Of a stretch of 22,709 bases of DNA, positions 1 through 18,272 are shown piece by piece. Source of the stretch: Pseudomonadota bacterium (GTDB lineage: Bacteria > Desulfobacterota > Syntrophobacteria > Syntrophobacterales > Syntrophobacteraceae); NCBI GenBank assembly GCA_023416335.1, contig JAEZHY010000110.1:1-22709 (forward strand), read 5' to 3'. Within the stretch, counting starts at the first letter, position 1. Every line of letters starts with the position of its first letter. Position numbers and translations under genes: made by a program. Below the pieces are notes generated by a model. The model saw only the letters and a program-made list of their open reading frames with translations, searched no databases and had not been told where the DNA came from.

Positions 1-498
1 GGCCAGGGCTCGCGCTATCTCCAACCGCCGCCTTTCGCCATACGAAAGGCTCTTTGCAGGTACGTCGGCATGGTGGGCGATTCCGACCCTTTCCAGGCAA
101 GCCATTGCCTCGCTTCTGCTTCGCCGCTCTTCGCGCATGGAGGAAGGCAGGCAAAACAGCCGCGGCAACAGGCTCCTTTGCGACTTGAGATGCTGCCCCG
201 CAATGACGTTCTCAACGCAGGTCATGGCAGGAAAAAGCCGGATGTTTTGAAAAGTCCGGGCTACTCCCAGGGCGGCAACACGGTGCGCCGGCAGATCGTG
301 GACCGGTTGGCCGGCAAGCAGCACGCTCCCGGAATCCGGCGGGGTCAGGCCGCTCAATACATTGATCAAAGTGGTCTTGCCTGCCCCGTTGGGACCGATC
401 AGCCCGTGGATAGTTCCCGCCTTTACGGAAAAAGAAACGCCCGCAAGAGCGCTCACTCCCCCGAAGGACCTTGCTATTTCTTCGATTTGTAACAACAT
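1..498 (-). CDS. livG: Branched-chain amino-acid ABC transporter ATPase (LivG-like), 3' end cut by window
   Basis: The minus-strand frame is open from an ATG at 498 down to base 1 (166 codons, no stop), so the gene runs off the window. The visible part has a Walker A motif GPNGAGKT at about residues 35-42, a LivG-typical segment reading VARTFQNIRLFP near residues 80-92, and a signature region SYGERRRLEIARALA at the very end. The LivG class energises import of leucine/isoleucine/valine or related amino acids through the LivHM permease. The C-terminal Walker B and H-loop lie outside the window. It follows livK-livH-livM on the same strand, but after an unusual gap of about 550 bases. The identification as a LivG-type ATPase is firm; the substrate is inferred from neighbours only. 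Confidence 0.93.
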   Translation of the reverse strand, partial: MLLQIEEIARSFGGVSALAGVSFSVKAGTIHGLIGPNGAGKTTLINVLSGLTPPDSGSVLLAGQPVHDLPAHRVAALGVARTFQNIRLFPAMTCVENVIAGQHLKSQRSLLPRLFCLPSSMREERRSRSEAMACLERVGIAHHADVPAKSLSYGERRRLEIARALA

Positions 499-1046
499 GG
501 CCGCAACCTGAATGCAAAAGACAAAAAACTTACAACCACGAAATTCTCGAAAATCACGAAAGAAAAAAACGTAGAAGCTGCTTTGTTCCGCTGTTTTGCA
601 ATCTCCAGCGGGCTGTTGTCTGACACATACAACCCCCTTAATGGACGAATTAAGCGGGAGAATGTCCTATCTCCGTCATCCCGGCAGAGCTTTTGAGCCG
701 GGATCCAGAGCATTTGGTTAATGAATTCACAAGTGATCCCCTCGGGACCCTCTTATAAAGCTTCAATTCGGAATCGGGTTATGGCGCGTTTTCCCAACCG
801 CGACTTTTTCGGTTCCAGGCCGGCACGGTCAGGAAACCATGCCTGAACTCAACAGGGCGTTCCATTCAACAGCGAAGTTTCATTCTCGTTCAAACCGCAT
901 CCGGGAATGGCGGCTCCGCTGGATTCCGGTGTGAGCTTGTCCTGATCGAAGAGAAGGGCCGGAATGGCGGAACTCTCGGTCCATAAGCCATTCGAGGCTA
1001 CCGCGCCGGTTTGGGTCCTGTCCTCTCCGCATGGGAACCCACACTA
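499..1046. other. Non-coding gap inside the liv operon, carrying dispersed repeats
   Basis: No convincing gene is seen between livM and livG. The stretch holds a repeat with an 8-bp inverted repeat at 678-704, a related copy of which lies at 17011-17052. It also has two copies of the 10-mer GGAATGGCGG at 904-913 and 961-970. An A-rich tract lies near 535-570. The composition resembles short interspersed repeat debris, not a promoter region, although a promoter for livG cannot be excluded. Confidence 0.6.
673..710 (+). repeat. Dispersed repeat with internal hairpin (copy 1)
   Basis: Bases 678-685 (ATCCCGGC) and 697-704 (GCCGGGAT) form a perfect 8-bp inverted repeat with an 11-base spacer. The flanks (CCGTC at 673, CAGAG at 706) and the GCTTTTGAGCCGGG core recur in reverse orientation at 17011-17052, more than 16 kb away. 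This marks a short interspersed repeat family in this genome. Confidence 0.65.
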
Positions 1047-1973
1047 TTATCCCTGGACCGCAATCTTTCCTTTTGGACTTTCGCGGTCCTCTTTGATGTT
1101 TTTGATATTACTTTCATCCCCCGAACTTCGCGGCGAGCGGCTGAACAGGGAAACCAAACCATTCGGAAGATACAGTATCACCAGGAGAAGAATCACTCCG
1201 TTCAGGCCCATACGGAGCGGTCCGGCCGTTACTCCCGCACCTCGAAGCACCTCGGGGAGGGCCGTCAGAAGCAGCGCCCCCAATATGGGGCCGTACCAGA
1301 TCCGGGTTCCGCCGACGATGTTATAGATGAGCAGTTGGACTGCGGCCGAAAAGCCAAACTCACCCGGCGATACGATGAAATTGAGATGGGCGTTGAGGGC
1401 CCCGGCAAGACCTGCGATGAAAGCTCCCGTCGCAAAAGCAAGGGTTTTATAGTAGGTCCTGTTGATACCCATTGCCGCTGCGGCGACTTCGTCTTCGCGG
1501 ATGGCGGCAAGACTCCAGCCGATCTTCGAGCCGCGCAGCCTGGCAAGAAAGTAAGCCGTGGCCGCCAGCGCCCCGTATATGATCCACGTCGTGGTCTTGT
1601 TCGGAATTCCAACCAGTCCTTGGGCGCCGCCCGTGATCTGCAGGTTGACCGCGGTGATGCGCACGACCTCTCCGAAGGCCAGGGTCGCCATGGCCAAAAA
1701 CACGCCCCGGATGCGAAGGACCGGCAGGCCGATCAGGAGCGCCACGAGTGCGGAAAGGCTCGCGCCGGCAAGGAGAGAGAGAACATAGGGGGAATTCATG
1801 TTCATCGTGAGAATGCCCGCAGTGTAGGCCCCTATGCCGGCGAAGGCCGCGTTTCCGAGTGAAAGCTGTCCTGCCGAAAGCGTCACATAAAGGCTTAGTG
1901 CCAGGAGCGAGTTGATCCCGATGAAGTTTATCAGGCTGCCGTAGACGGCAATGAAGTGTGTGAAGAATTCCAT
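1047..1973 (-). CDS. livM: Branched-chain amino-acid ABC transporter permease (LivM-like)
   Basis: This 308-residue multi-spanning membrane protein has LivM-family landmarks: an N-terminal segment with LSLGNAAFAGIGAYTAG (about residues 36-52), the coupling-helix region around SLAAIREDEVAAAAMGIN (about 153-170), and the motif NIVGGTRIWYGPILGA (about 217-232). It forms the inner-membrane channel together with LivH. Its ATG overlaps the livH stop codon by one base (TAATG), so the two are translationally coupled. The last 35 or so residues are a charged tail (SRSPRSSGDESNIKNIKEDRESPKGK) that is probably cytoplasmic. Length is normal for the family. The transported amino acid cannot be told from the sequence. 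Confidence 0.95.
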   Translation of the reverse strand: MEFFTHFIAVYGSLINFIGINSLLALSLYVTLSAGQLSLGNAAFAGIGAYTAGILTMNMNSPYVLSLLAGASLSALVALLIGLPVLRIRGVFLAMATLAFGEVVRITAVNLQITGGAQGLVGIPNKTTTWIIYGALAATAYFLARLRGSKIGWSLAAIREDEVAAAAMGINRTYYKTLAFATGAFIAGLAGALNAHLNFIVSPGEFGFSAAVQLLIYNIVGGTRIWYGPILGALLLTALPEVLRGAGVTAGPLRMGLNGVILLLVILYLPNGLVSLFSRSPRSSGDESNIKNIKEDRESPKGKIAVQG

Positions 1974-2863
1974 TATGCCTCCCGCACTTTTCCGCGCCCG
2001 AAAAGCCCCGAGGGTTTCAGGATCAGAATGGCAAAAAGCACAGAGAAGGCAACGGCATCGCGCAGGTTCGATGTTCCTGAAATGGCCACGGTCAGGACCT
2101 CGCTCAGTCCGAAAGCGATTCCGCCCAGGATTGCGCCGGGAATGCTCCCCATACCTCCGAGAATGATAACGGCAAGGCCTTTCAGTTCAATCGATCTTCC
2201 CATATCGGTCGAGAGGGAATCGAAGTAGAGTCCGTAGAGGATTCCTGCAGCGCCGCCGAGGGCGGAAGAGACAAAGAAGGTTGTGGAGATGATCCCCTCG
2301 ACATTGATTCCCAGAAGCCGTGCCGTTCGCTCGCTCTCCGCAACCGCACGAATCGCCTTGCCGATCCGGGCGCGCTTCAGGAATATGGTGAGCGCCGCCA
2401 TCAGCAGCACCGCTGTTATGACAATCCCCAGTTGGAGCGAGGTTATCGAAACGGACCCGATATGCAGGATGTGGTTTTTGATTGTTCCTTCAGGAAACCG
2501 CACGGTCCTGGCCCCGAAAATGCCGAGTGCGGCACTTTCGAAAATTATGGCCATTGCAATGCTCGAAATGAGGCCGGAGAGGTTCGAGTCGGCTCGCAGG
2601 CGCAGGGGGGCAAAGGCAATCCTGTCGAGCAGGACTCCCAGAATTCCCGCTGCCATGACTGCCAGGGGAAAGGCAGCCCAGATCGAGAGGCCCGCTCCCG
2701 TCACGAACCATAATCCTATCAGGCCGGCGAGGGTGAAAATCGCGGGGTGAGCGAGGTTCAGAATGTCCAGAACGCCAAATACCAGGGTGTAGCCGACGGC
2801 AAACAGCCCATAGACGCTTCCGATAAAAAGACCGTTTATCAATTGCTGCATCAGCACAGCCAT
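1973..2863 (-). CDS. livH: Branched-chain amino-acid ABC transporter permease (LivH-like)
   Basis: This 296-residue hydrophobic permease begins LMQQLINGLFIGSVYGLFAVGYTLVFGV, the classic LivH opening, followed by LNLAHPAIFTLAG. The cytoplasmic coupling region AIRAVAESERTARLLGIN lies at about residues 170-187, and the segment AVIILGGMGSIPGAILGG at about 231-248. It pairs with LivM in the inner membrane. The start at 2863 has a GAAGGTG ribosome-binding-site-like sequence about 7 bases upstream. It lies 57 bases downstream of the binding-protein gene and overlaps livM by one base, so it belongs to one operon. The family call is solid. Confidence 0.95.
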   Translation of the reverse strand: MAVLMQQLINGLFIGSVYGLFAVGYTLVFGVLDILNLAHPAIFTLAGLIGLWFVTGAGLSIWAAFPLAVMAAGILGVLLDRIAFAPLRLRADSNLSGLISSIAMAIIFESAALGIFGARTVRFPEGTIKNHILHIGSVSITSLQLGIVITAVLLMAALTIFLKRARIGKAIRAVAESERTARLLGINVEGIISTTFFVSSALGGAAGILYGLYFDSLSTDMGRSIELKGLAVIILGGMGSIPGAILGGIAFGLSEVLTVAISGTSNLRDAVAFSVLFAILILKPSGLFGRGKVREA

Positions 2864-2920
2864 GGGCGTGCACCTTCATTTTTTCGGGAAGAAGGGGGGC
2901 AACGGCCCCCTGTGTGCTTC

Positions 2921-4066
2921 CTATTCCAGGAGGGCGAACTTGCCGCCCTTCACCACCTGGACGACCGGCGTGTGATCCGCATCGCGGGATTGGGTGAACG
3001 AGAACTTCCCAAGCACGGTGTCAAAATCCCTGATCTTGGCCATCGCATCACGCAGTGCCTTTCGATCGTCGGTGGTACCCGCCCGTTTCAAAGCCTCTTG
3101 AGCGATGAAAACCGCCGCATAGGCCTGAGCCGCGAACTGGTCGGGCGGGTTGCCGTACTTGGAGGTGTAGGCCTCGATAAAATGGCTGTTCAAGGGATTG
3201 GTGGAAGTTGCGAACCAGGACGCACCGACGATGACATTCTCCGAGGCCTGCCCGGCATTCTTGATAAGAGTCGGCGAATTGAAACCGTTTCCGCCAATAA
3301 TGGGAATGCTCGTCGGGATCCCGAGCTGCCGTGCCTGGCCGACGATACCGGATGCTTCCTCGACCAGGGCGGAGACTATTATGGCATCCGGATTGAGGCT
3401 CTTTATCTGGGTCAGCTGCGGCGAGAAGTCCCGGTCCCCTTTCGCAAACGTCTGCTCGTTCAGAACTTCGATACCCGACTCTTTCAGCGCGTGTTTGAAT
3501 GCGTCGTAGCCGCCCTTCGTGTACGCATCGTCGTTGCCGTAAAGCACCACGACTTTCTTTATCCCGAGCTTTTCCTTCGCTACCCGGATGGTGTTCGGTA
3601 TGACAACCATTTCCATCAGCGAGTCGCGAAAGATGTTGTCGCCAATTTCCGTAATGCCCTTGGCCGTGTTGCTGATTGCCAAGACCGGCACGCCGGCCTG
3701 CTGGGCAATTCGGTCGGTCACCTGCGCCGTGTTGCTGAGCGTCGGGCCGATAATCAGGACCACCTTGTCGGCATTGATGAATTTGTTGAAAACGTTGACG
3801 CCCTGTTGCGGCACGCTGGCATCATCGTCGAAAAGTGCCTGAATCCTGATGTCGCCCTGTGCGGCTTTGGCGTTTATCTCTTCGACCGCGAGCTGGGCGC
3901 CGTTCTTTTGCGTATCCCCATAAGCGGCCGAGCCTCCCGTCATGCTGAAAGCAAAACCGATCTTCGCTTCCTTTTCGGCGGCCAGGGCGGAACTGCCCAC
4001 CAGGGCCATGATGAGAGCCGCGGTTACTGCCGTGATCGCCCCGATTTTCTTTTTGCCGGACTGCAT
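2921..4066 (-). CDS. livK: Branched-chain amino-acid ABC transporter substrate-binding protein (LivK/LivJ-like)
   Basis: Type I periplasmic binding protein of the Leu/Ile/Val family, 381 residues from the start chosen here. That start is the ATG at 4066, preceded by GGGAGG with a 5-base spacer. The same frame is open upstream to 4150, but that extension would precede the signal peptide and has no ribosome binding site. The N-terminus is a classical signal peptide: MQSGKKK, a hydrophobic core, then ALA cleavage at about residue 29. The mature part begins AEKEAKIGFAFSMTGGSAAYG, with later family segments IIGPTLSNTAQ and VVVLYGNDDAYTKGGYDAF. There is no lipobox cysteine, so it is probably soluble in the periplasm. 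It heads the livKHM-G operon and delivers substrate to LivHM. Confidence 0.95.
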   Translation of the reverse strand: MQSGKKKIGAITAVTAALIMALVGSSALAAEKEAKIGFAFSMTGGSAAYGDTQKNGAQLAVEEINAKAAQGDIRIQALFDDDASVPQQGVNVFNKFINADKVVLIIGPTLSNTAQVTDRIAQQAGVPVLAISNTAKGITEIGDNIFRDSLMEMVVIPNTIRVAKEKLGIKKVVVLYGNDDAYTKGGYDAFKHALKESGIEVLNEQTFAKGDRDFSPQLTQIKSLNPDAIIVSALVEEASGIVGQARQLGIPTSIPIIGGNGFNSPTLIKNAGQASENVIVGASWFATSTNPLNSHFIEAYTSKYGNPPDQFAAQAYAAVFIAQEALKRAGTTDDRKALRDAMAKIRDFDTVLGKFSFTQSRDADHTPVVQVVKGGKFALLE

Positions 4067-4343
4067 TGATGCCTCCCAGGTCTGAATTATTAGGATGCGA
4101 TATTCTTCATCTGCCACAACGTGCATGCCGCACGAGGTCAGGCTGTCCAAGCTAGAGGAATTGCGCAGCTTCCCGGAGAGATCCGTTTCGAAGGGTGAGA
4201 GAAGGAGATCCGCCCGTCACTTTCGACCCAAACTGACCGGCGGCGGAACCTGCTTTGAGTGCGAATCAGCGATCTTTTCGACTCTGTTGTCTTACTCCAG
4301 CGAGCATAGCGTATGAGAAAAATGACGTATCCTACTCCAAGTG
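4067..4343 (-). promoter_or_regulatory. Upstream region of the liv operon
   Basis: This stretch must hold the liv promoter. On the minus strand a TTGACA hexamer (from about 4347 downward) has no good TATAAT partner at 16-18 bases, and a TATGCT hexamer occurs further down near 4305. Neither pair is convincing, so no exact promoter is claimed. No GG-N10-GC sigma-54 site was found here. Confidence 0.3.
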
Positions 4344-4815: not shown

Positions 4816-5096
4816 CACAAATGGTCAAGCGCATTTGTTATTTGCACTCTCGAAATGATCGACTTCCCTGGTCACATATCGACGTCGCTCTTTTTCGTTC
4901 GCGCACGGGGCATCAACTGCCTTTTCCCTACCTTGCCGAAGGTTCAAAATCCGCAGAAAGGAACGAATTTTGCTAACCACTTTAAGAGGGCAAACCTGCA
5001 CAATAAACCGGGTTCGCTCTACCGCGCTATGACCATGCAATCTTCTCAGGAACGGCTCAAAGACCAGGACTGGTATACAGGCTGTAAAGGATGAAA
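4816..5096 (+). other. Divergent intergenic region before the sigma-54 regulator gene
   Basis: No gene is supported here. The start of the regulator is best placed at 5097, because AAAGGA at 5086-5091 sits 5 bases before that ATG. No clear -35/-10 pair and no sigma-54 element is seen on the plus strand. Confidence 0.4.
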
Positions 5097-6956
5097 ATGC
5101 AAACTGACGAGAAGCTTGAGAAGCGTATTGCCTATGAAAGAATGCTGGCGGGCATATCGGAAAGGGCTGTGCTGGTAGATGATCTGCACGACCTTTTAAA
5201 TGAGTCGCTGAAAAGCATGGGAAGCATTCTGGATGTCAGTCGCGCATTTATATTCACGTATTATCCGAAGTCAGACATCTTCAGCTGTGCCTGTGAATGG
5301 GATTCGCCGGGAACAGCGACCCTGAAAGACCTCAATGAATTAACGCTTTCGATACCCTGGGCGACTCAACAGCTGAAAAACGGCAGCGTGATCAATTACC
5401 AGGACACGCGGGAAATGCCCGGCGTATGCTACCGGGAAAGGCTGCTGGCCGCCAAGGTCGAATCCACCCTGAATGTGCCTATGTTTGTGAGAGGCGAACT
5501 GTACGGTTTCATGGGATTCGACGAGTGCCGTTTCCACCGGAAATGGATAGATGAAGACCTCTATATCTTGACAACTGCTGCTCAGATCATCACCCGCGCG
5601 ATTGAAAACAAGAAGTATGAAGAAGCATTGGAAGAACATCGCAGCCGTCTTGAATCTATTTTCAGCAGCGTACAGGATGCCATAATCACCGTCGATACGA
5701 AGATGCACGTAATTGAAGCGAATAAGGCCGCCGAGCAGATATGTGGAATTAAAATTACCACAGGTAAACCCTTCACCGATTGCACCACCGGATGTGATCG
5801 GTCGTGCGTAAATATTTTGAATGAAACATTACTGAAGAAGGACACCGTCAGGGAATACAAGATAGAGTGCCGACACCCTGAGCGAAAAAATCTGATCGCA
5901 GCCGTTAACTGTTCCCCCCTGCTAAATCACAATGGGAATTTCATGGGGGCTGTATTGGTCATTCGCGATATCACCCGGCTCACCCATCTTGAGAAAGAGT
6001 TGAAGGAGCGGCAACACTATCAAAATATTATAGGAAAAAGCGAAAGAATGCAGAAGATTTACAGCCTGCTCAAGAGCCTGGCCAACATGGGCACTACCGT
6101 TTTGATTACGGGTGAGAGCGGTACCGGGAAAGAACTGGTTGCCCGGGCTTTACACTATGGCGGCCCACGAGCAAGCAAGCCGTTCGTAACGGTCAATTGC
6201 TCAGCACTTGCCGAAAATTTGCTCGAAAGTGAACTGTTCGGGCATGCCAAAGGGGCTTTCACGGGAGCAGACAAAGACAGAATGGGGCGTTTTGAGGCAG
6301 CTGACGGCGGAACCATAGTATTGGATGAGATTGGCGATATTTCTCCTCTCATACAGCTCAAGCTGCTGAGAGTCCTTCAGACCAAACAATTCGAGAGGGT
6401 GGGAGAATTGACCCCGCGAAAAGTCGACGTCCGGGTGGTTGCTTCAACTAACCGGGATTTGAGGAAGGAGATTCTGGCGGGAAGATTTCGAGAAGACCTG
6501 TATTATCGTCTCAATGTCATGGATATCGAAATCCCGCCCCTGCGTGAGCGCTACGAGGACCTTTCCCTGCTGGTCGATCATTTTCTCAAGATGTTCAACA
6601 GAAACTATCACAAGGGAATTGAAAACCTATCTGCTGAGGTCATGCAGGCTTTCATGAATTATCCCTGGCCAGGGAATATTCGCGAGTTGGAACACGCAAT
6701 CGAGAGGGCTTTCGTCTTATGTCAGGACAGGACCATCCTCCTGGAGCATATTCCTGCTGAAATCACGAGTTACACCATGCGAAAAAGGCAGCACACACCG
6801 CACCAGAAAACGGCGGACAATCCCAACGACCTTCTTGTCGCTCTGGAGAAAACGGACTGGAATATCTCGAAGGCTGCCCGGATTTTGGGGCTCAGCCGCT
6901 GGACGGTCTATCGGAGAATCGAGCAACTCAAAATCGGAAGACCGGTAAGAGTGTAG
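5097..6956 (+). CDS. Sigma-54-dependent transcriptional activator (GAF-PAS-AAA+-Fis HTH)
   Basis: This 619-residue enhancer-binding protein starts at the ATG at 5097, which has AAAGGA 5 bases upstream; the ATG two codons earlier lacks spacing. Domains in order: GAF-like sensor (about 20-170), PAS (about 183-295), AAA+ (about 310-535) and a C-terminal Fis-type helix-turn-helix (about 588-612, [20 protein letters not shown]). The AAA+ module has Walker A GESGTGKE (339-346), the sigma-54 contact loop GAFTGA (386-391) and Walker B IVLDEI (407-412). The PAS has three evenly spaced cysteines (229, 233, 237; CxxxCxxxC) plus C258, which could bind a metal or sense redox. The gene directly precedes a canonical sigma-54 promoter with an upstream palindrome, so its target is very probably the sulfotransferase/ABC operon. 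The effector is unknown. Confidence 0.95.
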
Positions 6957-7086: not shown

Positions 7087-7103
7087 TGGCACTCTATTTG
7101 CTT
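7087..7103 (+). promoter_or_regulatory. Sigma-54 (-24/-12) promoter
   Basis: TGGCAC (7087-7092), five bases, then TTGCTT (7098-7103): an essentially consensus RpoN promoter with the required GG-N10-GC spacing. Transcription would begin near 7113, leaving a leader of about 110 bases before the sulfotransferase-like gene. It lies directly downstream of a sigma-54 activator gene, which supports function. Confidence 0.88.
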
Positions 7104-7221: not shown

Positions 7222-8034
7222 ATGAACAAGATCATCGTAAACTGGATGTATCCAAGATCACTTACAACAGTCTTCATGCGTGCGATAAAAAACCGGGGCG
7301 ACTTTCAGACCATATTCGAGCCGTGCCTTCCCATTTACTGGCGTGAGCGACATGATCCGGGCGTACAGTCCCATCAGGATTACGAGGGCTGGCCTGTGGT
7401 TTACGAAGAAGTCATCAAGAAAATATATTCGATCGCGGAAAACGGCCCCACTTTCATCAAGGAATGCCCCTATCACGCAATTGACAAGTACCTGGCCGAT
7501 GAGCAATACCTGAGGAGAGTCACCCATACCTTCCAGATCCGCGACCCGAAGTTCGTCGTCCTTTCCTTCTGGAAGGTCCTCGGCACCCAAAAATCCATAC
7601 GCATAGAAGATGTCGGCCCCCCTTCCGTTTATCGCATTTTTCAAAGAGTAACGGAATTGGGGCTCCATGCCCTGGACGGCGGCAAGACTCCGCTCGTTAT
7701 TGATGGTGAGGATTTCCAAAACGATCCCCAGGGGATAATGGCAGCATGGTGTGATGCGATCGGGGTTGAATACAAACCGGAATCCCTGAATTGGGACCCG
7801 GAATGGAGAAGTGAGTACAACCACTGCGATGGTTTTTACCATGATGTTGCCAACAGCACCGGCATCCAGAAAAACATGGAAGCGTTTATGTACGACGAGA
7901 AGGTAGTAAACGCAATTTTCGAAGACCTGCCCATGCTCAAGCTGCTCTACGAGCACTGTCTGCCAATCCACGAAGAACTGTATAAGCACAGGCTGAAGCC
8001 GAAGAAGATCGCAGGCACTTCAGCATCCAGGTAA
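7222..8034 (+). CDS. Sulfotransferase-like P-loop protein
   Basis: 270 residues from the ATG at 7222, which has GGAAGGA about 5 bases upstream; an upstream TTG in frame at 7186 lacks such a site. The N-terminus MNKIIVNWMYPRSLTTVFMRA resembles the PAPS-phosphate-binding loop (PRSxxT) of sulfotransferase-family proteins, with a predicted beta strand before it and a helix after. A later segment RIEDVGPPSVYRIFQRVTELG and the DGEDFQNDP region fit a small single-domain sulfotransferase fold. There is no signal peptide, so it is cytoplasmic. It is the first gene after the sigma-54 promoter and precedes a taurine/sulfonate-type importer. A sulfur-related role is inferred, but the substrate is unknown, and members of this superfamily do not all transfer sulfate. 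Confidence 0.72.
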   Translation: MNKIIVNWMYPRSLTTVFMRAIKNRGDFQTIFEPCLPIYWRERHDPGVQSHQDYEGWPVVYEEVIKKIYSIAENGPTFIKECPYHAIDKYLADEQYLRRVTHTFQIRDPKFVVLSFWKVLGTQKSIRIEDVGPPSVYRIFQRVTELGLHALDGGKTPLVIDGEDFQNDPQGIMAAWCDAIGVEYKPESLNWDPEWRSEYNHCDGFYHDVANSTGIQKNMEAFMYDEKVVNAIFEDLPMLKLLYEHCLPIHEELYKHRLKPKKIAGTSASR

Positions 8035-8171: not shown

Positions 8172-8999
8172 GTGAGAGCCAAAGAAGGACATCTTCAAAT
8201 CAGGAATGCGACCAAGATTTACGATGCACAGGGCGTGGGTGTTCATGCCGTCGACAACTGTGACTTCGATATCAAGGCGGGAGAGTTTGTTGCAATCGTC
8301 GGTCCTTCCGGCTGCGGGAAAACGACGCTTCTTAACATGATTGCCGGCTTCGAATCGATAAGCGGGGGAGAAATTCACATGGACGGAAATGTCATCGCTT
8401 CTCCCCAAAAGCGACTGCATCCCGGACCCGATCGGGTGGTCGTCTTTCAGGCAGGCGCCCTTTTCGACTGGCAGACTGTTTTGGACAATATCACGTTCGG
8501 CCCGGTAATTACGGGGGCAATGAGCCACACCGAAGCGAAAAAGAAAGCACTCGATTTAATCCGAATGGCAGGGCTGAAGGGATATGAAAATGAATATCCG
8601 ATACGAATTTCATCCGGGATGAAACGTCGCGTCGAGATCCTGCGGGCATTGATAAACGAACCAAAAACACTTCTTCTCGACGAACCATACAGGGCAATGG
8701 ATGCCATTACAAAATCTGTGATGCACAAGTTCCTGCTCGATGTTTTTGACAGGGTCCACAAAACCGTCATGTTCATCACGCATGATCTCGACGAATCGAT
8801 TTACCTGTCCGATCGGGTTGGAATAATGACCACGCGGCCCGGCAAGTTCAAAAAATGGGTCACTGTCGATCTCCCACGACCGCGCGATTTCAAAATCAAG
8901 CAATCACCGGAATTCCTGGCGCTAAAAAAGGAGACGCTCGAGGCGGTTCACGAAGAGGCCAGGAAATCTTTTGAACGTGGCGAGCGAGAAGGCGCCTGA
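8172..8999 (+). CDS. ABC transporter ATPase, TauB/SsuB family, with degenerate signature motif
   Basis: 275 residues from the GTG at 8172, preceded by AGGAAGGA; an ATG five bases earlier meets a stop at once. Motifs: Walker A GPSGCGKT (44-51), Q-loop Q93 in VVFQAGALFDW, Walker B TLLLDE (166-171) and H-loop FITHDLDES with H204. The signature that should read LSGGM/Q is ISSGM (146-150): the first glycine is a serine. The D-loop reads AMDA. It acts on the cytoplasmic face of the membrane with the TauC-like permease downstream. A second, different ATPase gene follows 76 bases later, so the importer probably uses a heterodimer in which this subunit supplies intact Walker A/B and H-loop but a poor signature. 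The family is certain; the substrate is unknown. Confidence 0.92.
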   Translation: MRAKEGHLQIRNATKIYDAQGVGVHAVDNCDFDIKAGEFVAIVGPSGCGKTTLLNMIAGFESISGGEIHMDGNVIASPQKRLHPGPDRVVVFQAGALFDWQTVLDNITFGPVITGAMSHTEAKKKALDLIRMAGLKGYENEYPIRISSGMKRRVEILRALINEPKTLLLDEPYRAMDAITKSVMHKFLLDVFDRVHKTVMFITHDLDESIYLSDRVGIMTTRPGKFKKWVTVDLPRPRDFKIKQSPEFLALKKETLEAVHEEARKSFERGEREGA

Positions 9000-9075
9000 G
9001 AGGCTTACGAGGCCCGGGAGCACTCCCGCCCCGGATATTTCATACTGGCCAAAGGTCATTTCATAAGGATCGACC

Positions 9076-9879
9076 ATGTCTGGAGCACCAACGAACAGAG
9101 GGGCCGGCGAAATGCAGATGGAAAATGTCTGCGTCTCTTTCGGCAAAAAAAGGATTCTCGAAAATATTTCTCTGGACATACCAAAAGGTTCTTTCACCTG
9201 CATCTGCGGACCGTCCGGCTGCGGGAAGACGACTATCATGTCAATCCTTGCCGGTTACCTCAAACCCAATAGCGGCCTATGCACATTCAATGGCGTTCCG
9301 GTTTCCGGACCAAGTCCCGACCGGTTGGCCGTATTCCAGGAAAACACCCTGTTTCAATGGATGTCTCTCTGGGACAACACCTTGTTTGGCCCAAAGATTC
9401 AGGGGCAAGACCTGGAAAAAGCCGCCGACAAAGCCAGAGAGCTTATTGAGTTAAGCGGATTGGGCGGTTTTGAGAAGAAGTTCCCGGGGCAGCTTTCAGG
9501 TGGAATGCAAAGAAGGGCAGAGTTGATAAGGGCATTGATCAATGAACCTCAAATCCTCCTGATGGACGAACCTTTCCGCGGACTGGATGCGATGACCCGC
9601 GGAATGATGCAGGAATATTTCCTGAGAGTTTTCGAAAATTCACAGATCACGATGCTACTCATAACCTCGGAATTGGACGAGGCCATCTTTATGGGGGACA
9701 CCGTCTACCTGCTGTCCACCATGCCCGCTTCGATAAAGAAAAGAATAGCAATCACCATACCGCGACCCCGCATTTTAGAACATCAAACATCGAGCGATTT
9801 CGCAAACATTCAGAATGAAGCCTACGAAATCATGGAAACGGAAGCCCTGAAAGCTTTTGAACTCGTTCCAGCAGTTTAG
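9076..9879 (+). CDS. ABC transporter ATPase, TauB/SsuB family, lacking the H-loop histidine
   Basis: 267 residues. Walker A GPSGCGKT (45-52), Q88 in AVFQENTLFQW, signature LSGGM (140-144) and Walker B ILLMDE (160-165) are intact. The switch region reads LLITSELDEA, with serine 198 where the catalytic H-loop histidine is expected (THD in relatives). Its defect is complementary to that of the preceding ATPase. In a head-to-tail dimer, this protein's good signature completes the neighbour's intact site, while its own Walker A faces the neighbour's ISSGM, making a degenerate site. It lies between the first ATPase and the permease in the same operon. The gene shows no frameshift, so the change is unlikely to be simple decay. 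Confidence 0.92.
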   Translation: MSGAPTNRGAGEMQMENVCVSFGKKRILENISLDIPKGSFTCICGPSGCGKTTIMSILAGYLKPNSGLCTFNGVPVSGPSPDRLAVFQENTLFQWMSLWDNTLFGPKIQGQDLEKAADKARELIELSGLGGFEKKFPGQLSGGMQRRAELIRALINEPQILLMDEPFRGLDAMTRGMMQEYFLRVFENSQITMLLITSELDEAIFMGDTVYLLSTMPASIKKRIAITIPRPRILEHQTSSDFANIQNEAYEIMETEALKAFELVPAV

Positions 9880-9906: not shown

Positions 9907-10773
9907 ATGAACAGCTACTCCAAAGACCTCGGAGAAGGGGGAGTCATCTCCGCCAAACAGGCGCCACAGGACAAGTCCGATGCTTTCCTGGCCGGATTGC
10001 GTCGGTACAAACCCAGCACAGAGAAAATGATCACCTTTTGTACTTTATCCATTATCTTTTTGGCCTGGTATGAAATCACCGCAAGAGATGTCGTTCCCCG
10101 AATCTTCATACCTTCGCCTTACGACGTCTGGCAGGGATTCGGAGAGACCCTCATCGAGGGCTATCACGGCAAGAGCATTATTTTTCATTTCCTGTACAGC
10201 CTCGCGCGGGTCCTGGTCGGATGGGTCGTCGCGTGTATACTGGCAATACCGCTTGGCCTGGCCATGGGGTTGAGTTCCAGAATCAGAGCAGTCTTCGACT
10301 ATATTATCGAGTTTTACCGCCCGCTTCCGCCTTTGGCATATTACACTCTCCTGGTACTCTGGTTCGGAATCGGAGAGTCATCCAAGATACTGCTGCTTTT
10401 CCTGGCAGCCATCCCGCCATTGACTATCGGGGCCGTAGAAGGCGTCAAGGAAGTCAGCCCTTCAGTAATACAGGCGGCCCGTTCTCTTGGGGCGAATTCA
10501 AAACAGGTCTTTTACAGGATAATTCTGCCGGCAACCACCCCTGCAATAATAACATCGATGCGGATCAGCCTCGGGTTTACCTATACCGTTCTCGTAGCTG
10601 CCGAGATTGTCGCGGCTACCGAAGGAATTGGCTGGATGGTCTGGGATGCGAGCAAGTTCCTGAGATCCGATATCATCTTTGTAGGCATAATCACCATGGG
10701 ATTAACAGGCATCGGCCTGGACGCATGCCTCAGACTCATAGCCAAACGACTGTTGCGATGGAAATACCAGTAG
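9907..10773 (+). CDS. ABC transporter permease, TauC/SsuC family
   Basis: 288-residue inner-membrane permease of the nitrate/taurine/sulfonate (BPD_transp_1) type. There is an unusually long hydrophilic N-terminal tail (about 40 residues), then a first membrane helix (ITFCTLSIIFLAWYEI) and the periplasmic segment RIFIPSPYDVWQGF. The EAA coupling loop is EGVKEVSPSVIQAARSLGANSKQVFYRIILPATTPAI (about 178-214). About six membrane helices are expected. A GGGAGG sequence lies 5 bases before the ATG. It is the only permease gene in the cluster, so the membrane part should be a homodimer, in contrast to the two distinct ATPases. Substrate class by family: sulfonates, nitrate/cyanate or related small anions. 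Confidence 0.94.
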   Translation: MNSYSKDLGEGGVISAKQAPQDKSDAFLAGLRRYKPSTEKMITFCTLSIIFLAWYEITARDVVPRIFIPSPYDVWQGFGETLIEGYHGKSIIFHFLYSLARVLVGWVVACILAIPLGLAMGLSSRIRAVFDYIIEFYRPLPPLAYYTLLVLWFGIGESSKILLLFLAAIPPLTIGAVEGVKEVSPSVIQAARSLGANSKQVFYRIILPATTPAIITSMRISLGFTYTVLVAAEIVAATEGIGWMVWDASKFLRSDIIFVGIITMGLTGIGLDACLRLIAKRLLRWKYQ

Positions 10774-10853: not shown

Positions 10854-11873
10854 ATGAAGCGTATTCTTTGGACAGGCGTACTTTTGGGGCTCGTAATTCT
10901 GTTTACGGGTCAAATAGCTCTTGCGGAAGAAAAACCGCAGAAAGTGAGAATCGGTTATCTGTCTTTGGTAAACGCACAATTGATCACGAAACATCTCAAA
11001 TACCATGAGCAGGAGATGGGCGTGCCCATCGAATGGTTTAGATTCAATTCGGGCAGGGACGTCAATACCGCCATGGCTTCAGGAAGCATTGATTTTGGAA
11101 ATGTCGGGCTTCCCCCCGCGGCAATAGGAATTGCAGGAGGAATGGCTTACTGGGGAATCTTGAACGCCAACGTACTGGGAGATGTTGAGTCTCTCGCGGT
11201 GAGGCCGGGCATCAACTCCGTCAAAGACCTGGAAGGCAAAACGGTTGTGGCGCCATTTGGCTCAACGACTCATTACTTGCTAATGCGTGCATTCACCGAA
11301 GCAGGCGTTGATGTAAAGAAGGTGAAAGTTTTAGACATGGCGCCCGGCGAAGCATTGGCTTCTTACATGAGAGGTGACGTTGATGCTGCTTTCATCTGGG
11401 AACCCAGCCTGGGACAACTCGTTGCGAAGGGTGCAAAGATAATCCTCACGAGTTCGCAAATGGGTGCCCGTGGCGCGGTTACCTGGGACATCATCAGCGC
11501 CCAGCCCGAATTTGCCCGGAAATACCCGGACATGGTCAAGAAGTTCATCAAGAGCGAGTTGCGCGCCATCGATTACTGGCACCAAGATCCAGAGGAATCG
11601 GCAAAGATTATTGTTGAAGAACTGGGCGGAATAACGATTCAAGACGCCCGGCGGATGATGGCCGGAACCCAGCTTCTGGATATATCGAAGCAATTGAGCC
11701 CGGCATTTCTCGGCACTTCGAAGCAGAGAGGCTCCTCCGCCGACGATCTGGTAGCTGTCGGCAAATTCCTGCTTGAACAGGGTCGGATCAAGAAAGCGAT
11801 TACCAAAGAAGCCGCCGAGCAATTTATCCATCCGGAATTTCTCGAAGCGGTTCAGGCTGAACTAAAGAAGTAA
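10854..11873 (+). CDS. Taurine/sulfonate-type ABC substrate-binding protein (TauA-like)
   Basis: 339 residues with an N-terminal signal peptide (MKRILW, hydrophobic core, cleavage after ALA at about 24) and no lipobox cysteine. The mature protein shows segments recalling E. coli TauA: a FNSGRDVNTAMASGSIDFGNVG stretch with a following PPAAIGIA, then VVAPFGSTTHYLLMRAF and DVDAAFIWEPSLGQL. In TauA the equivalent STTHY region lies at the ligand cleft. This makes taurine or another small sulfonate the best guess, though no binding residue is proven. It is the last gene of the sigma-54 operon, a normal length for the family, and would hand substrate to the TauC-like permease. No taurine-degrading enzyme gene (TauD, Tpa, Xsc) is visible in the window. 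Confidence 0.92.
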   Translation: MKRILWTGVLLGLVILFTGQIALAEEKPQKVRIGYLSLVNAQLITKHLKYHEQEMGVPIEWFRFNSGRDVNTAMASGSIDFGNVGLPPAAIGIAGGMAYWGILNANVLGDVESLAVRPGINSVKDLEGKTVVAPFGSTTHYLLMRAFTEAGVDVKKVKVLDMAPGEALASYMRGDVDAAFIWEPSLGQLVAKGAKIILTSSQMGARGAVTWDIISAQPEFARKYPDMVKKFIKSELRAIDYWHQDPEESAKIIVEELGGITIQDARRMMAGTQLLDISKQLSPAFLGTSKQRGSSADDLVAVGKFLLEQGRIKKAITKEAAEQFIHPEFLEAVQAELKK

Positions 11874-12498: not shown

Positions 12499-13740
12499 TC
12501 AGTGCTCATACGCTGCTGCCGCCCTTTTTCCGTTCCAGGGCGCAAAGCGGGTCAGGAGGAAAAGGCCCGGCAGGGCACCGAGCGTACTGACGGCAAAGAA
12601 GACCGGCCATCCGAAATAGTTGGCCATCGCGCCGGTGGGACCTCCGGCGATTATGCGGGACGCGGCCATGAAGCTGGTCAGCAGCGCGTACTGGGTCGCG
12701 GTGAAGCGCTTGTCGCACAGGCTCATCATGAATGCTATGTAGGCCGCATTGCCCATACCCCCGGAGATGTTTTCGATGCCGATTGCCGTTACCATCGCCG
12801 GATAGCTCTTGCCGATTACTGCCAGCGCGGTGAACGACAGGTTGGAGAGGGCCTGCAGAATTCCGAACACCCAGAGCGAGCGATTGATTCCAATCCTGGC
12901 AATAATGCCTCCACCCACCAGGGTCCCGAGGATGGTACTGATCAGGCCGAAAGCCTTGTTCACCGTCCCCACGTCGGACCGGCTGAAATCTATGGCGAGC
13001 AGAAAGGGCGTCGTCATTGCACCGGCGAGCGAATCTCCCAGTTTGTAGACCATGATAAAGATGAGCATCTCAACTGCGCCGGTACGTTTGAAATAATCGG
13101 ACAGCGGTCCGAATACAGCCTCCTTGAGGCTTCGGGGAGGAACGACCTCGACTTCCGGTTCCGGGGCAAGGAGTGTGAAAATAACGCACAGGAACATTAT
13201 CCCGGCGATGAGAAGATAGACGGAGCGCCAGGGAATATGATCAGAGGCAATCAGGGCCAGAGCGCCCGAAACGAGCATGGCGAGCCGGTAGCCGACGACA
13301 CCGGTTGCTGCTCCGGGCCCCAGTTCCTGTTCCCGCAGGACGTCGGCCCGGTATGCGTCGATAACGACGTCCTGGCTTGCGCTAAGGAAGGCCAGGACGA
13401 GGGCCGCAAAAGCCACGAGGGCCGGCATGGCGGCAGGTGATGTGTACCCCATGGCCAAGATGCTGATGACCAACATCAATTGTATTGATATAATCCAGCC
13501 GCGCCTTCTTCCCAGCCAAGGAGGACTGAACCTGTCCATGAGCGGGGCCCAGAACACTTTCAGAGCGTAGGGCAAGCCCACCAGGGAGAAGATGCCTATA
13601 GTAGTGAGATCGACCTTTTCGGTCATGAGCCAGGCCTGCAGGGTCGAGCTCGTCAGGGCAAGCGGCAGTCCGGAAGAAAATCCAAGGCCGAAAAGATTCA
13701 AAACGCGTCTATTACCGTATATATTGAGCCAATTGCTCAT
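12499..13740 (-). CDS. ampG: AmpG-like muropeptide/MFS permease
   Basis: 413-residue major facilitator superfamily protein with about 12 hydrophobic segments. AmpG landmarks are the opening LFGLGFSSGLPLAL (about 16-29) followed by STLQAWLMTEKVDLTTIGIFSLVGLPYALKVFWAPLMDRF (about 32-71), and ASQDVVIDAYRADVL (about 121-135). AmpG imports GlcNAc-anhydroMurNAc peptides from the periplasm for cell-wall recycling. The gene is monocistronic in this window and divergent from the radical SAM gene, with a 133-base shared upstream region. AGGTGAAAC lies just before its ATG. Substrate specificity beyond the family is inferred; related MFS transporters can carry other cargo. Confidence 0.87.
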   Translation of the reverse strand: MSNWLNIYGNRRVLNLFGLGFSSGLPLALTSSTLQAWLMTEKVDLTTIGIFSLVGLPYALKVFWAPLMDRFSPPWLGRRRGWIISIQLMLVISILAMGYTSPAAMPALVAFAALVLAFLSASQDVVIDAYRADVLREQELGPGAATGVVGYRLAMLVSGALALIASDHIPWRSVYLLIAGIMFLCVIFTLLAPEPEVEVVPPRSLKEAVFGPLSDYFKRTGAVEMLIFIMVYKLGDSLAGAMTTPFLLAIDFSRSDVGTVNKAFGLISTILGTLVGGGIIARIGINRSLWVFGILQALSNLSFTALAVIGKSYPAMVTAIGIENISGGMGNAAYIAFMMSLCDKRFTATQYALLTSFMAASRIIAGGPTGAMANYFGWPVFFAVSTLGALPGLFLLTRFAPWNGKRAAAAYEH

Positions 13741-13873: not shown

Positions 13874-14926
13874 ATGATCCGATTTGAAGATTTTGCTGAA
13901 AAATGGAAGATCGACCCGGCCCCGTTGGAACCCGTCGTCCGGGCGCACCCATTCAAGCTGAACGCTTATTTCGAGCGGCTGATCGAAGCACCGGGAGATG
14001 CGGTCTGGCGGCAGGTGGTTCCGAATGCGGCCGAGCTTTCGGACGCAGAAGGGATGGATGATCCCCTTGCCGAAGAAAGCCTCTCGCCTGCTCCGAATCT
14101 GGTCCACAGGTATCCCAACCGGGTTTTGTGGCTGGTAAACGACCAGTGCGCCGTCCACTGCCGCTTCTGCACCAGAAAGCGCAAGTGGCGGGAAGGGGAA
14201 TCCCGTGCGCTCAACCAGGACCTGAACCCCGCGCTGGCCTACATCAAAGGAAATCCGCAGGTCCGGGACGTATTACTCTCCGGCGGCGATCCCCTTCTGC
14301 TCCCTCTCGAGCGGCTTCGGGAGATCCTGACCAAACTCCGATCGATCCGGCATGTCGAGGTCATTCGCATTGGAAGCCGCGTACCGGGGGCGCTCCCGCG
14401 CAGGATTACTCCGGAGCTGGCCGGATTGCTTTCACAATTCCATCCGCTCTACATCAACATCCACTTCAACCATCCGGCCGAGGTGACCCCTGATGCCGAA
14501 CGTGCCTGCGCCACCCTGGCAAGCGCCGGGATTCCGCTCGGCAGCCAGACGGTGCTCCTTCGCGGAATCAACGACAACGAAGCCGTCCTCGGCGATCTCT
14601 TCCACCGCCTTCTCACGGTCCGGGTGCGTCCCTACTACCTGATGCAAATGGACATAACGAAAAGCACGGCATATTTCCGGACTCCGGTCGGCACCGGCCT
14701 CAGAATTGTCCGCAACCTTCGCAACCACATATCGGGAATCGCCATGCCCCATTTCGTCATCGATCTTCCCGGCGGGCATGGGAAGGTAGCGCTCCTGCCG
14801 GAAATGGTGCGGGAGGTCTCCGACGGCAGGCTGATCGTGGAGAACTATCTCGGAAAGCTGTGTTCCTACCCGCTTCTCAGCGGCGAGGAAGAGGAACTGG
14901 CAAGGTTGATTCGGGCCGTTCCTTAG
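13874..14926 (+). CDS. Lysine 2,3-aminomutase-family radical SAM protein (KamA/EpmB-like)
   Basis: 350 residues. The radical SAM cluster motif CAVHCRFC (C92, C96, C99) is followed by TRKRKW, as in KamA. The glycine-rich LLSGGDPLLL comes at about 134-143. The PLP-binding lysine is K304 in DLPGGHGKV. Two aspartates that hold the lysine epsilon-amino group in lysine 2,3-aminomutase appear conserved: D260 (QMDITKSTAYFRTP) and D297 (VIDLPGG). It would use SAM, a 4Fe-4S cluster and PLP to move an amino group from carbon 2 to carbon 3. At 350 residues it is shorter than clostridial KamA and close in size to EpmB, which acts on lysine for elongation factor P. No epmA, efp or beta-lysine acetyltransferase gene is nearby, so free lysine versus EF-P maturation stays open. 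Confidence 0.88.
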   Translation: MIRFEDFAEKWKIDPAPLEPVVRAHPFKLNAYFERLIEAPGDAVWRQVVPNAAELSDAEGMDDPLAEESLSPAPNLVHRYPNRVLWLVNDQCAVHCRFCTRKRKWREGESRALNQDLNPALAYIKGNPQVRDVLLSGGDPLLLPLERLREILTKLRSIRHVEVIRIGSRVPGALPRRITPELAGLLSQFHPLYINIHFNHPAEVTPDAERACATLASAGIPLGSQTVLLRGINDNEAVLGDLFHRLLTVRVRPYYLMQMDITKSTAYFRTPVGTGLRIVRNLRNHISGIAMPHFVIDLPGGHGKVALLPEMVREVSDGRLIVENYLGKLCSYPLLSGEEEELARLIRAVP

Positions 14927-16241: not shown

Positions 16242-16865
16242 TTAATCCTTCCTTCCCCACATCTTGTCAAGAAACGATTGCCTGCCCGAGCCGATCTTGT
16301 AGAAAGTATAATGCACCGGATCCTTCCGGTAGTACTCCTGGTGGTAGTCCTCGGCCTTGTAGAACGGCCCCGCCGGTTCTATTTCCGTGGCAATCCTTCC
16401 TCCGAACTTCCCCGATTCCTCCAGTTCCTGTTTCGATGCTTCGGCCTGAAGTCTCTGTCCTTCATCATGATAGAAAATGACGGTCCTGTATTGAGAGCCT
16501 TTATCTGCGAACTGCCCGTTTTCCTGGGCCGGGTTGATGTTTTTCCAGAATATCTCGATCAGTTCTCGAAAGCCGATCTTCGAAGGATCGAACACGATTT
16601 CGATCGCCTCCGTGTGCCCCGTCCTGCCCAAGCTGACCTCTTCGTACGTGGGATTTTCGGTTCTGCCGCCGGTGTAGCCCACCGCTGTCGATATCACCCC
16701 GGGCAGATGGTCGAAAGCCGGCTGCATGCACCAGAAGCACCCTCCGGCAAAGATCGCTTTTTCCAGGTGCTTTTCATTCGTGTCGGCGTCGGTTCGGGGC
16801 TCGTTGTCGCTCTCGATGAGAGCCAACAAGAACGCAAAGGCAAGGCTGATTAAACCTATATCCAT
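16242..16865 (-). CDS. msrA: Peptide methionine sulfoxide reductase MsrA, probably exported or membrane-anchored
   Basis: 207 residues. The MsrA catalytic motif GGCFWCMQPAFDHLPGV starts at residue 41, with catalytic C43. Later family blocks are VGYTGGRTENPTYEEVSLGRTGHTEAIEI and FADKGSQYRTVIFYHDE, then EDYHQEYYRKDP. It reduces methionine-S-sulfoxide using thioredoxin-type reductants. The N-terminus MDIGLISLAFAFLLALIESDNEP is hydrophobic and unlike cytosolic MsrA, suggesting a short membrane anchor or uncleaved signal. A cytosolic form would need a start at a codon nearer the HLEKAIFAGG segment, but the first ATG has AAGGAA 6 bases upstream, so the long form is preferred. It has no msrB partner in the window. 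Confidence 0.94.
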   Translation of the reverse strand: MDIGLISLAFAFLLALIESDNEPRTDADTNEKHLEKAIFAGGCFWCMQPAFDHLPGVISTAVGYTGGRTENPTYEEVSLGRTGHTEAIEIVFDPSKIGFRELIEIFWKNINPAQENGQFADKGSQYRTVIFYHDEGQRLQAEASKQELEESGKFGGRIATEIEPAGPFYKAEDYHQEYYRKDPVHYTFYKIGSGRQSFLDKMWGRKD

Positions 16866-17432: not shown

Positions 17433-18272
17433 TCAATTCTTCGCGGGCTCGGACCCTGCAAACTCTTTCCCGAGCAACTCGCCCAGCGAATTAAGATGGC
17501 TCTTTTCCTCGTCCGCGAGGCCGAAGAAGACCTCACGCGCCGCTTTATCCGAACTGGATTGGGCCATCTGCAAATAAAGATCGAGCGCCTGGACTTCTAT
17601 CATCATGGCCAGTTCCAGGCAGCCGTGCGGCGATTGCAGGAAGGATTCGTTTCGGCGCAGGAAATCGTCCACTTCCAAACCGCCCTCCATCTTCCCGGCA
17701 AGAACGGGAGGATCTGCATTGCTCCCGAGTTCCGCCAGGAGATTCCGAAGTTTCTCTATATGACTTCCCTCGGCCCTGACGAGTTTTTCGAGAAGACCTC
17801 TCACCAGCGGGCTATCGCTTTTCTCAAGGGCTTTCCTGTGGAACTGCTCCAGCCCGCTTTCCATTCCGAGGGCGATTCGTGCCGCTTCCTCGGCCGACTC
17901 ATCTCCACGGACAAATTGAAGGTACAGCTCGGAAGGGCCGGAGGCGGTCCTTTCCTCCCAGGCTTCGATTCCGCCTTCGAGCTGGAAAGTGCGGGCAAAT
18001 CCGCGGGCTGCAAGAAACCGGGCAGCCATCAGGCTTCTTCCGCCCACGCTGCAGTAGACGATTGTGTCCTTTTGCGGATCCATCTCACCCAAGCTGCTCG
18101 CAAGCATCGGCAGGGGGATCGATTTTGAGCCGGGAAGGTGGTTATCCTCATATTCTTCCGGCTGGCGCACGTCGAGGAGCAGGTACGATCCCTCCCTGTG
18201 CCTGCCGATATATTCCTTCAAATCGTCCGGAAACAGAATCGTCACGCCGGCCGCGCTTTCCTTTCCCGCCAT
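17433..18272 (-). CDS. Rhodanese-ferritin-like (rubrerythrin-type) fusion protein
   Basis: 279 residues in two domains. Residues 10-110 are a single rhodanese domain with SYLLLDVRQPEEYEDNHLPGSKSIP and the active-site loop CSVGGRS (C74), which carries persulfide sulfur. Residues about 118-270 are a four-helix ferritin-like domain with carboxylate and histidine pairs suited to a di-iron centre: E138 region (GMESGLEQFH), E168/H171 (AEGSHIEKL), E220-E225 (LELAMMIEVQ) and E255/H259 (ADEEKSHL). No signal peptide is present. It is the last gene of a minus-strand cluster with the deacetylase-like gene. A role in sulfane sulfur handling or oxidative stress is inferred; the natural substrate is unknown. 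Confidence 0.88.
   Translation of the reverse strand: MAGKESAAGVTILFPDDLKEYIGRHREGSYLLLDVRQPEEYEDNHLPGSKSIPLPMLASSLGEMDPQKDTIVYCSVGGRSLMAARFLAARGFARTFQLEGGIEAWEERTASGPSELYLQFVRGDESAEEAARIALGMESGLEQFHRKALEKSDSPLVRGLLEKLVRAEGSHIEKLRNLLAELGSNADPPVLAGKMEGGLEVDDFLRRNESFLQSPHGCLELAMMIEVQALDLYLQMAQSSSDKAAREVFFGLADEEKSHLNSLGELLGKEFAGSEPAKN

Follow-up and report, generated by a model that had tools for sequence, protein, structure and literature searches.

Two adjacent ATPases with complementary motif changes beside a TauC-type permease in a predicted importer operon

In a closed head-to-tail ABC dimer, each ATP site combines the Walker A/B motifs and H-loop of one subunit with the signature of the other. 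Many exporters have asymmetric ATP sites, as do importers with fused RbsA-type (CUT2) ATPases. In CFTR, TAP, TM287/288 and other degenerate-site exporters, a single composite site is altered: one NBD has a changed signature, and in some of these proteins the partner NBD has a changed H-loop as well. They have exporter folds, and the catalytic Glu of the degenerate site is often changed too. All human degenerate sites are described as having an altered signature in one NBD, and that of CFTR as having an H-loop deviation and no catalytic Glu (PMC7756269). The NBD2 signature of CFTR is given as LSHGH (PMC3268037), and for exporters, loss of the catalytic Glu has been named a hallmark of the degenerate site (PMC7544095). 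B. subtilis RbsA and NupO are each described with one degenerate site (PMC11466899).

The nearest solved relatives of the ATPases studied here are, by sequence, NrtBCD and CmpBCD, the cyanobacterial nitrate and bicarbonate importers, which use two different ATPases. NrtC and CmpC carry a C-terminal solute-binding-like region and CmpB is described as likely homodimeric (PMC13249358). NrtBCD and CmpBCD are a precedent for two different ATPases on a probably homodimeric permease. As opposed to our pair, all aligned NrtC, NrtD, CmpC and CmpD sequences keep SGGM and the H-loop His, and both of our ATPases stop after about 270 aa, before any region like that of NrtC and CmpC. E. coli TauABC and SsuABC resemble our locus in the type of substrate-binding protein (SBP), in permease type and in broad ATPase superfamily, but have one ATPase gene with LSGGQ and His intact, in place of two altered ones.

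The locus lies in a contig of 22,709 nucleotides from a member of the Syntrophobacteraceae (JAEZHY010000110.1), hereafter the window; all features described are on the forward (+) strand. A sigma-54 activator, a sulfotransferase-like gene, two ATPases (ABC1 and ABC2), a single permease and a single SBP follow one another, an order shared by three Desulfovibrio MAG contigs, L001–L003. As in NrtCD/CmpCD-type systems, two different ATPases thus stand beside one permease gene in the window and in L001–L003. The window departs from the family pattern, in which one ATPase with a canonical signature and a canonical H-loop acts as a homodimer: it has two ATPases, with complementary changes. We consider it probable that these sister ATPases form an obligate heterodimer with one working and one largely non-hydrolysing site, predicted to drive a single TauC-type permease that imports a sulfonate-like or similar small organic anion. 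This proposal builds on the motifs and on how they are conserved in 97 linked pairs, on the one clade formed by each subunit and on the TauC-type permease; the site roles and the history set out below are predictions.

Motifs of the two ATPases and their conservation

ABC1 (positions 8172–8999) is an ABC ATPase of 275 aa with a GTG start and an altered signature (Pfam ABC_tran, 107 bits), and ABC2 (9076–9879) is an ABC ATPase of 267 aa that has lost the H-loop His (99 bits). Read from the translations, the motif series are GPSGCGKTT, VVFQ, ISSGM, LLLDEP, RAMDA and ITHDL in ABC1, and GPSGCGKTT, AVFQ, LSGGM, LLMDEP, RGLDA and ITSEL in ABC2; neither protein has a defect in Walker A, the Q-loop or the catalytic Glu. 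The ABC1 signature ISSGM (aa 146–150, positions 8607–8621) has Ser148, encoded by TCC, for Gly at its third position, followed by the D-loop RAMDA (8691–8705), with Arg at position 1, and the H-loop ITHDL (8775–8789), with His204 intact. In ABC2, the signature LSGGM (aa 140–144, 9493–9507) is intact, the D-loop RGLDA (9577–9591) also starts with Arg, and in the H-loop ITSEL (9661–9675) Ser198, encoded by TCG, replaces His. Frames, coordinates and residues agree with an earlier sequence-only reading of this DNA, which had reported ISSGM with intact Walker A/B and His204 in the first ATPase and LSGGM with Ser198 in the second. That reading had named a sequencing error at either motif as grounds for giving up its proposal; by the code table, TCC is at least two substitutions from a Gly codon and TCG three from a His codon, so a single-base read error is excluded at Ser148 and Ser198, and relatives share the same states.

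AlphaFold2 single-chain models give confident, normal NBD folds for both proteins (mean pLDDT 89.8 for ABC1 and 88.4 for ABC2), and in a fold search run with the ABC2 model only, CmpCD and NrtCD chains were the best matches. The top NCBIfam matches of the two ATPases are SaoA, ntrCD and TauB, at 226 to 174 bits, all under the curated cut-offs. Together, the NCBIfam matches, the tree and the best PDB matches (CmpD/NrtD) assign ABC1 and ABC2, by sequence, to the TauB/SsuB/NrtCD group.

The two changes are not peculiar to the window. For each subunit we aligned 121 rows, made up of the window row and the best 120 database rows listed, headed by the window protein's own entry. All 121 ABC1-like rows combine Ser at signature position 3 with an intact H-loop His, and all 121 ABC2-like rows combine LSGGM with replacement of the H-loop His, by Ala, Ser, Thr or, once, Asp. 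We also collected 97 linked ABC1–ABC2 pairs, 77 from a scan of genome contigs and the rest from whole-genome surveys, with repeats of the same contig removed. Both changes are present in 88 pairs, the signature change only in 5 (L059, L066, L189, L233, L234) and the H-loop loss only, with the ABC1 signature intact, in 4 (L011, L069, L078, L184). Within the contig-scan subset of 77 the figures are 72, 2 and 3, and the asymmetry is retained across distant lineages. Viewed by subunit, the ABC1 signature has Ser in 93 of the 97 pairs and lacks it in 4, and ABC2 has lost the H-loop His in 92. By these comparisons, the complementary change is an old, conserved family trait. A check set in advance, that related pairs should keep the same substitutions, came out in favour of the earlier reading, with 0/97 pairs having both motifs intact, and its view that the matched losses do not reflect decay is supported as well. 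Its claim that the losses co-occur stands for most pairs, but not as a strict rule: the two losses are not strictly coupled, and 9/97 pairs carry a single change.

These changes are confined to one of the two composite sites, as the sequence-only reading had predicted. The other site, made of the ABC1 Walker motifs and His with the ABC2 signature, keeps His and SGG in 97/97 pairs, and like the degenerate-site class the family therefore has all its defects in one composite site, with an altered signature in one NBD in the window and 93/97 pairs. Replacement of the catalytic Glu, which is common in that class but not universal, is absent; the residue is present in both subunits in 97/97 pairs. 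The Walker A Lys is present in ABC2 in 97/97 pairs and in ABC1 in 90, the remaining 7 lying outside the fetched stretch. D-loops start with Arg in both subunits in 97/97 pairs. As a control, SGG and His are both retained in 48/48 distinct other superfamily ATPases (genome-survey loci together with E. coli TauB and SsuB), whose D-loops start with Gly, Ala or Ser; Arg-type D-loops had been filtered out of this set beforehand, which in part builds in the D-loop contrast. Discarded by this filter were fragmentary pair ATPases and two full-length proteins, the ABC2 of the L141 pair and the orphan L142, in each of which the H-loop His is replaced.

One group of relatives carries only half of the asymmetry. 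The L066 ABC2 keeps its His, as do 99 of the best 120 rows listed for it (itself included), so a sizeable ABC2 clade is only half-degenerate. The partners of His-retaining ABC2 proteins are visible at five loci, those listed above with the signature change only, and all have the Ser signature.

The closest parallel to this arrangement is found in importers. The sequence-only reading had likened the pair to CFTR, and the likeness holds for the signature position and the H-loop deviation, but fails at the catalytic Glu, absent from CFTR and kept here in 97/97 pairs. A comparison with E. coli RbsA and five paralogues replaced CFTR as the best analogue. In RbsA, MglA, AraG, XylG, AlsA and LsrA, the N half combines His with an altered signature (6/6), and the C half has LSGGN, an H-loop Ser followed by Glu or Asp, and an R-G-[VI]-D D-loop (6/6). 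The polarity is the same as in the window pair, and in both systems the R-G-x-D D-loop and Ser-acid H-loop fall in the H-loop-less half, which makes the fused CUT2-type ATPases (RbsA and kin), on sequence comparison, the closer analogue. As opposed to these single chains with fused halves, the window has two genes, of 275 and 267 aa, and where the six C halves have Arg for the Walker A Lys (6/6), window-type ABC2 proteins keep Lys in 97/97 pairs. Since the window pair consists of two genes, keeps the Walker Lys and sits inside the nitrate/taurine family, the likeness to CUT2 is likely convergent.

The altered motifs could instead be tolerated variants, with both composite sites hydrolysing ATP; Ser at signature position 3 and a small H-loop residue would slow a site without idling it, as the Glu and the Walker Lys remain. 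Such an explanation fits the retention in 97/97 pairs of the catalytic Glu and, in ABC2, of the Walker A Lys, and also the 9/97 pairs with a single change. It does not readily account for both changes falling in the same composite site in 88/97 pairs and the other site being hit in none, or for the same polarity in 6/6 CUT2-type ATPases of E. coli, where the degenerate half has no Walker A Lys either. We consider tolerated variation unlikely, and favour a heterodimer with unequal sites.

Permease, operon and regulator

Downstream of the ATPases, the single permease (9907–10773) contains Pfam BPD_transp_1 and scores 230 bits against the NCBIfam TauC model, below its cut-off of 342; its TauC type was assigned from a tree and an AU test. 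In most other loci of the family the order is SBP, permease, ABC1, permease, ABC2. Permease trees group the window and L001–L003 permeases with E. coli TauC and the permeases of L144–L146, which adjoin canonical ATPases; support is 99 for the window group with L144–L146 and 85 for the nine-row TauC group. Placing the window permeases inside the two-permease-type clade of the rest of the family is rejected by the AU test (p 1.4e-10), in which L141 rows were counted with the asymmetric family, four canonical rows nested there were added and two long rows were excluded. L004 has yet another permease type. Because the window permease is TauC-type, unlike those of most of the family, the two ATPase genes appear, from these trees, to have moved together and to have been joined to another permease at least once.

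The SBP (10854–11873) is TauA/SsuA-like, with matches to Pfam NMT1 families and 182 bits against TIGR01729; this is below the taurine cut-off of 304. It scores 508–544 bits against the SBPs of L001–L003 and only 23–60 bits against those of other family loci. The neighbouring genes indicate no substrate; downstream genes vary among the loci examined and include TauE, a nitrilase, an amidohydrolase, EamA and a Gld-like ABC unit.

Long-branch attraction offers another explanation of the permease result: the window permease would be TauC-like by artefact, no motor would have been transferred, and one permease would have been lost from a two-permease system. Permease branches are indeed long, E. 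coli TauC was among the long rows of the first tree and the nine-row TauC group has a support of 85. Against this stand the AU rejection, the support of 99 for grouping with permeases that adjoin canonical ATPases, and the SBP, which is TauA-like and close to those of L001–L003 but distant from those of other family loci. We judge the artefact decidedly improbable, and transfer of the ATPase pair to a TauC-type permease remains our reading of the permease data.

Upstream, the sulfotransferase-like gene (7222–8034, Sulfotransfer_5) lies ahead of the ATPases and is found also in L001–L003. It is preceded by a −24/−12 sigma-54 promoter-like site at 7087–7102, a perfect pattern match to TGGCAC-N5-TTGCT and the only match in the window at one mismatch or fewer. 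As 46 of 100 shuffles also contained at least one match at one mismatch, the argument for this site draws on its position and on the adjoining regulator, a sigma-54 activator with GAF, PAS, AAA+ and Fis HTH domains by Pfam (5091–6956), which keeps the same place in L001–L003. A perfect −24/−12 site is present in L002 too, and TGGCAT variants occur in L001 and L003; these sites lie ahead of the corresponding sulfotransferase-like gene or at its start. The activator is likely the regulator of the ABC operon.

Linkage and origin of the pair

The genome-contig scan used the peptide patterns GGMQRRAE and RGLDAMTR, and the best 80 of 311 confirmed loci were kept. As the patterns contain GGM and RGLDAMTR, the intact ABC2 signature and its D-loop are partly selected in this 80-locus set; the 121-row alignments are free of such selection. 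Both genes are present in 77 of the best 80 loci, on the same strand in 77/77 and no more than 2.1 kb apart. A permease gene usually lies between them, and ABC1 and ABC2 are directly adjacent (200 bases or fewer) in 11 loci. ABC1 is missing from three loci, of which L040 and L067 are both cut by the contig end; at the third, L055, neither ABC1 nor a permease was found in the 1.8 kb upstream of ABC2. A survey of whole genomes, 149 from the family group of G007 and 247 from the phylum group of G001 (396 in all), gave 15 ABC1 matches in 12 genomes, every one beside an ABC2 match, and two further matches to the A2 model were ABC2 partners themselves. For an extra ABC2-like gene in G007 (L142/L188), two 11-kb stretches around the gene contained no ABC1. 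The pair family is uncommon, being found in 6/149 and 6/247 genomes of these groups and in 2/299 of another phylum group, and a model of the His-retaining ABC2 matched in 1/24 and 2/240 genomes.

Distances within ABC1 covary with those within ABC2 over 76 pairs (r 0.84; 0 of 2,000 permutations as high), and the nearest neighbour is identical for the two subunits in 49/76. This covariation fits co-inheritance of the two genes, with shared species history also contained in r.

The ATPase tree was built from 35 of the 80 loci together with survey loci, with the signature, D-loop and H-loop columns excluded and repeats, fragments and 12/45 canonical rows left out; a rebuilt tree dropped two more long rows. 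ABC1 forms one clade (38 rows; SH-aLRT 99, rebuild 100), as does ABC2 (40, then 39 rows; SH-aLRT 92, rebuild 96). The canonical ATPases, 34 in the first tree and 33 in the rebuild, are separated from both subunits combined with a support of 99. An AU test rejects joining ABC1 with one nearby canonical subgroup (p 0.006). Since each subunit makes up a single clade and the two clades are sister groups within the nitrate/taurine ATPases, a single duplication in that family, followed by complementary change in the copies, is the likely origin of the pair as judged from the tree. Two changes are needed on the tree for the H-loop state and two for the signature state; the simplest reading would be a change close to the base of each clade with another following later, gain and loss being indistinguishable.

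ABC1 and ABC2 might also act as separate homodimers, for different permeases or under different conditions. Each gene does encode a complete NBD and most related loci have two permease genes, but every such homodimer would hold two defective sites, the two genes are closely linked with covarying distances, and the window and L001–L003 have one permease for two ATPases. We regard separate homodimers as very improbable. A redundant second ATPase that is decaying neutrally or was misassembled is an explanation with one point in its favour, the departure from consensus. It is ruled out, together with read error and a mix-up of paralogues, by Ser codons that lie two to three substitutions from those for Gly or His, by identical motif states in 121/121 rows for each subunit, by open frames, and by pN of 0.12–0.24 against pS of 0.72–0.81 between the window and L001–L003, where synonymous sites are near saturation.

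A predicted asymmetric motor

In the favoured heterodimer, the consensus site would be formed by the ABC1 Walker motifs and His204 with LSGGM of ABC2, and the degenerate site by the ABC2 Walker motifs and Ser198 with ISSGM of ABC1. Because the Walker A Lys, Q-loop and catalytic Glu are kept, the degenerate site is expected to bind ATP; it would hydrolyse slowly and serve mainly as a hinge that holds the dimer, with about one ATP hydrolysed per cycle, at the consensus site. A hinge-like, dimer-holding role of the weak site has been proposed for exporters (PMC7756269). Historically, a nitrate/taurine-type ATPase would have duplicated once, the copies would have acquired opposite changes, and the pair would later have been transferred to a taurine-type permease in the lineage of the window.

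Several observations count against the proposed motor. The catalytic Glu is intact in the supposedly idle site. Further points are the 9/97 single-change pairs, the clade of His-keeping ABC2 proteins, L055 and the ABC2-like orphan L142/L188.

A broader proposition is that of a widespread two-gene asymmetric motor of single origin inside the nitrate/taurine family, which would have converged on the CUT2 solution (D-loop Arg-Gly, Ser-acid H-loop), would spend one ATP per transport cycle and would form a portable cassette re-coupled to new permeases, driving a TauC-type homodimeric channel in the window. In our estimate the case for this composite is evenly balanced. Among the titles and abstract openings listed from mostly open-licence literature, we found no description of a two-gene degenerate pair in nitrate/taurine-type importers. 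Asymmetric sites as such are already known; what would be new, judging from the genes, is a two-gene asymmetric motor in importers of this type.

The reason for which many ABC transporters retain a weak ATP site has been sought mostly in exporters, where the halves are tied to membrane domains. Here the halves are separate proteins, natural relatives with a single change exist on each side, and L144–L146 place a canonical ATPase beside the same permease type, so experiments can address directly what each defect does and how much ATP is spent per molecule transported. That CUT2 ATPases carry the same residues suggests a solution reached more than once. Plasmid relatives, searched as a further source, gave 597 matching records, of which the best two (H1 and H2) are ordinary single-ATPase systems.

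Relatives that keep the H-loop histidine, and a pair on an archaeal-labelled contig

The H-loop histidine lost from ABC2 of the asymmetric pair is retained in a large ABC2 clade, in which 99 of the 120 listed relatives of the L066 ABC2 (P0247–P0366) keep it. Walker A reads GPSGCGKTV in 63 of these 120 listed rows, and the ABC1 partners of His-keeping ABC2 proteins carry the Ser signature (5 loci). Separately, one pair lies on a contig labelled as a Thaumarchaeota metagenome-assembled genome (L037), and its branch is long in the tree of ABC2 proteins; its presence under that label may reflect a binning error or transfer.

Additional and orphan ATPases

Immediately 3′ of the asymmetric pair, several proteobacterial loci encode a different ABC ATPase (within L042:9151–12472, L236:5492–6202, L242:5528–6388 and L243:2793–3542). 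That of L042 is GldA-like, with an NCBIfam match below the cut-off, and is followed by an 858-aa GldF/GldG-like fusion. Those of L236, L237, L242 and L243 share an unusual signature, LSKGL or LSKGW. One genome encodes an orphan ABC2-like ATPase (L142:1607–2794, the same gene in L188) with the motifs LSGGM, ITTEI and RGLDA; no ABC1 neighbour was found within the two 11-kb stretches around the gene.

Gene context in the window

The first gene of the transporter operon is sulfotransferase-like (7222–8034, Pfam), and it occupies the same place in L001–L003. It is preceded by a sigma-54 activator gene (5091–6956, Pfam) and by a perfect match to a sigma-54 promoter-like site (7087–7102). Another importer gene set lies at 1–4150 on the minus strand: Pfam assigns two permeases of the branched-chain type and one binding protein of the Peripla_BP_6 family, and an ABC ATPase fragment was read by eye. 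Downstream of the operon, Pfam matches mark an MFS permease (12499–13740), a radical-SAM lysine-2,3-aminomutase-like gene (13874–14926), a methionine sulfoxide reductase (16242–16865), a rhodanese/rubrerythrin-type protein (17433–18272), a histone-deacetylase-like gene (18315–19061) and, at the far end, a second sigma-54 activator gene (20124–21668).
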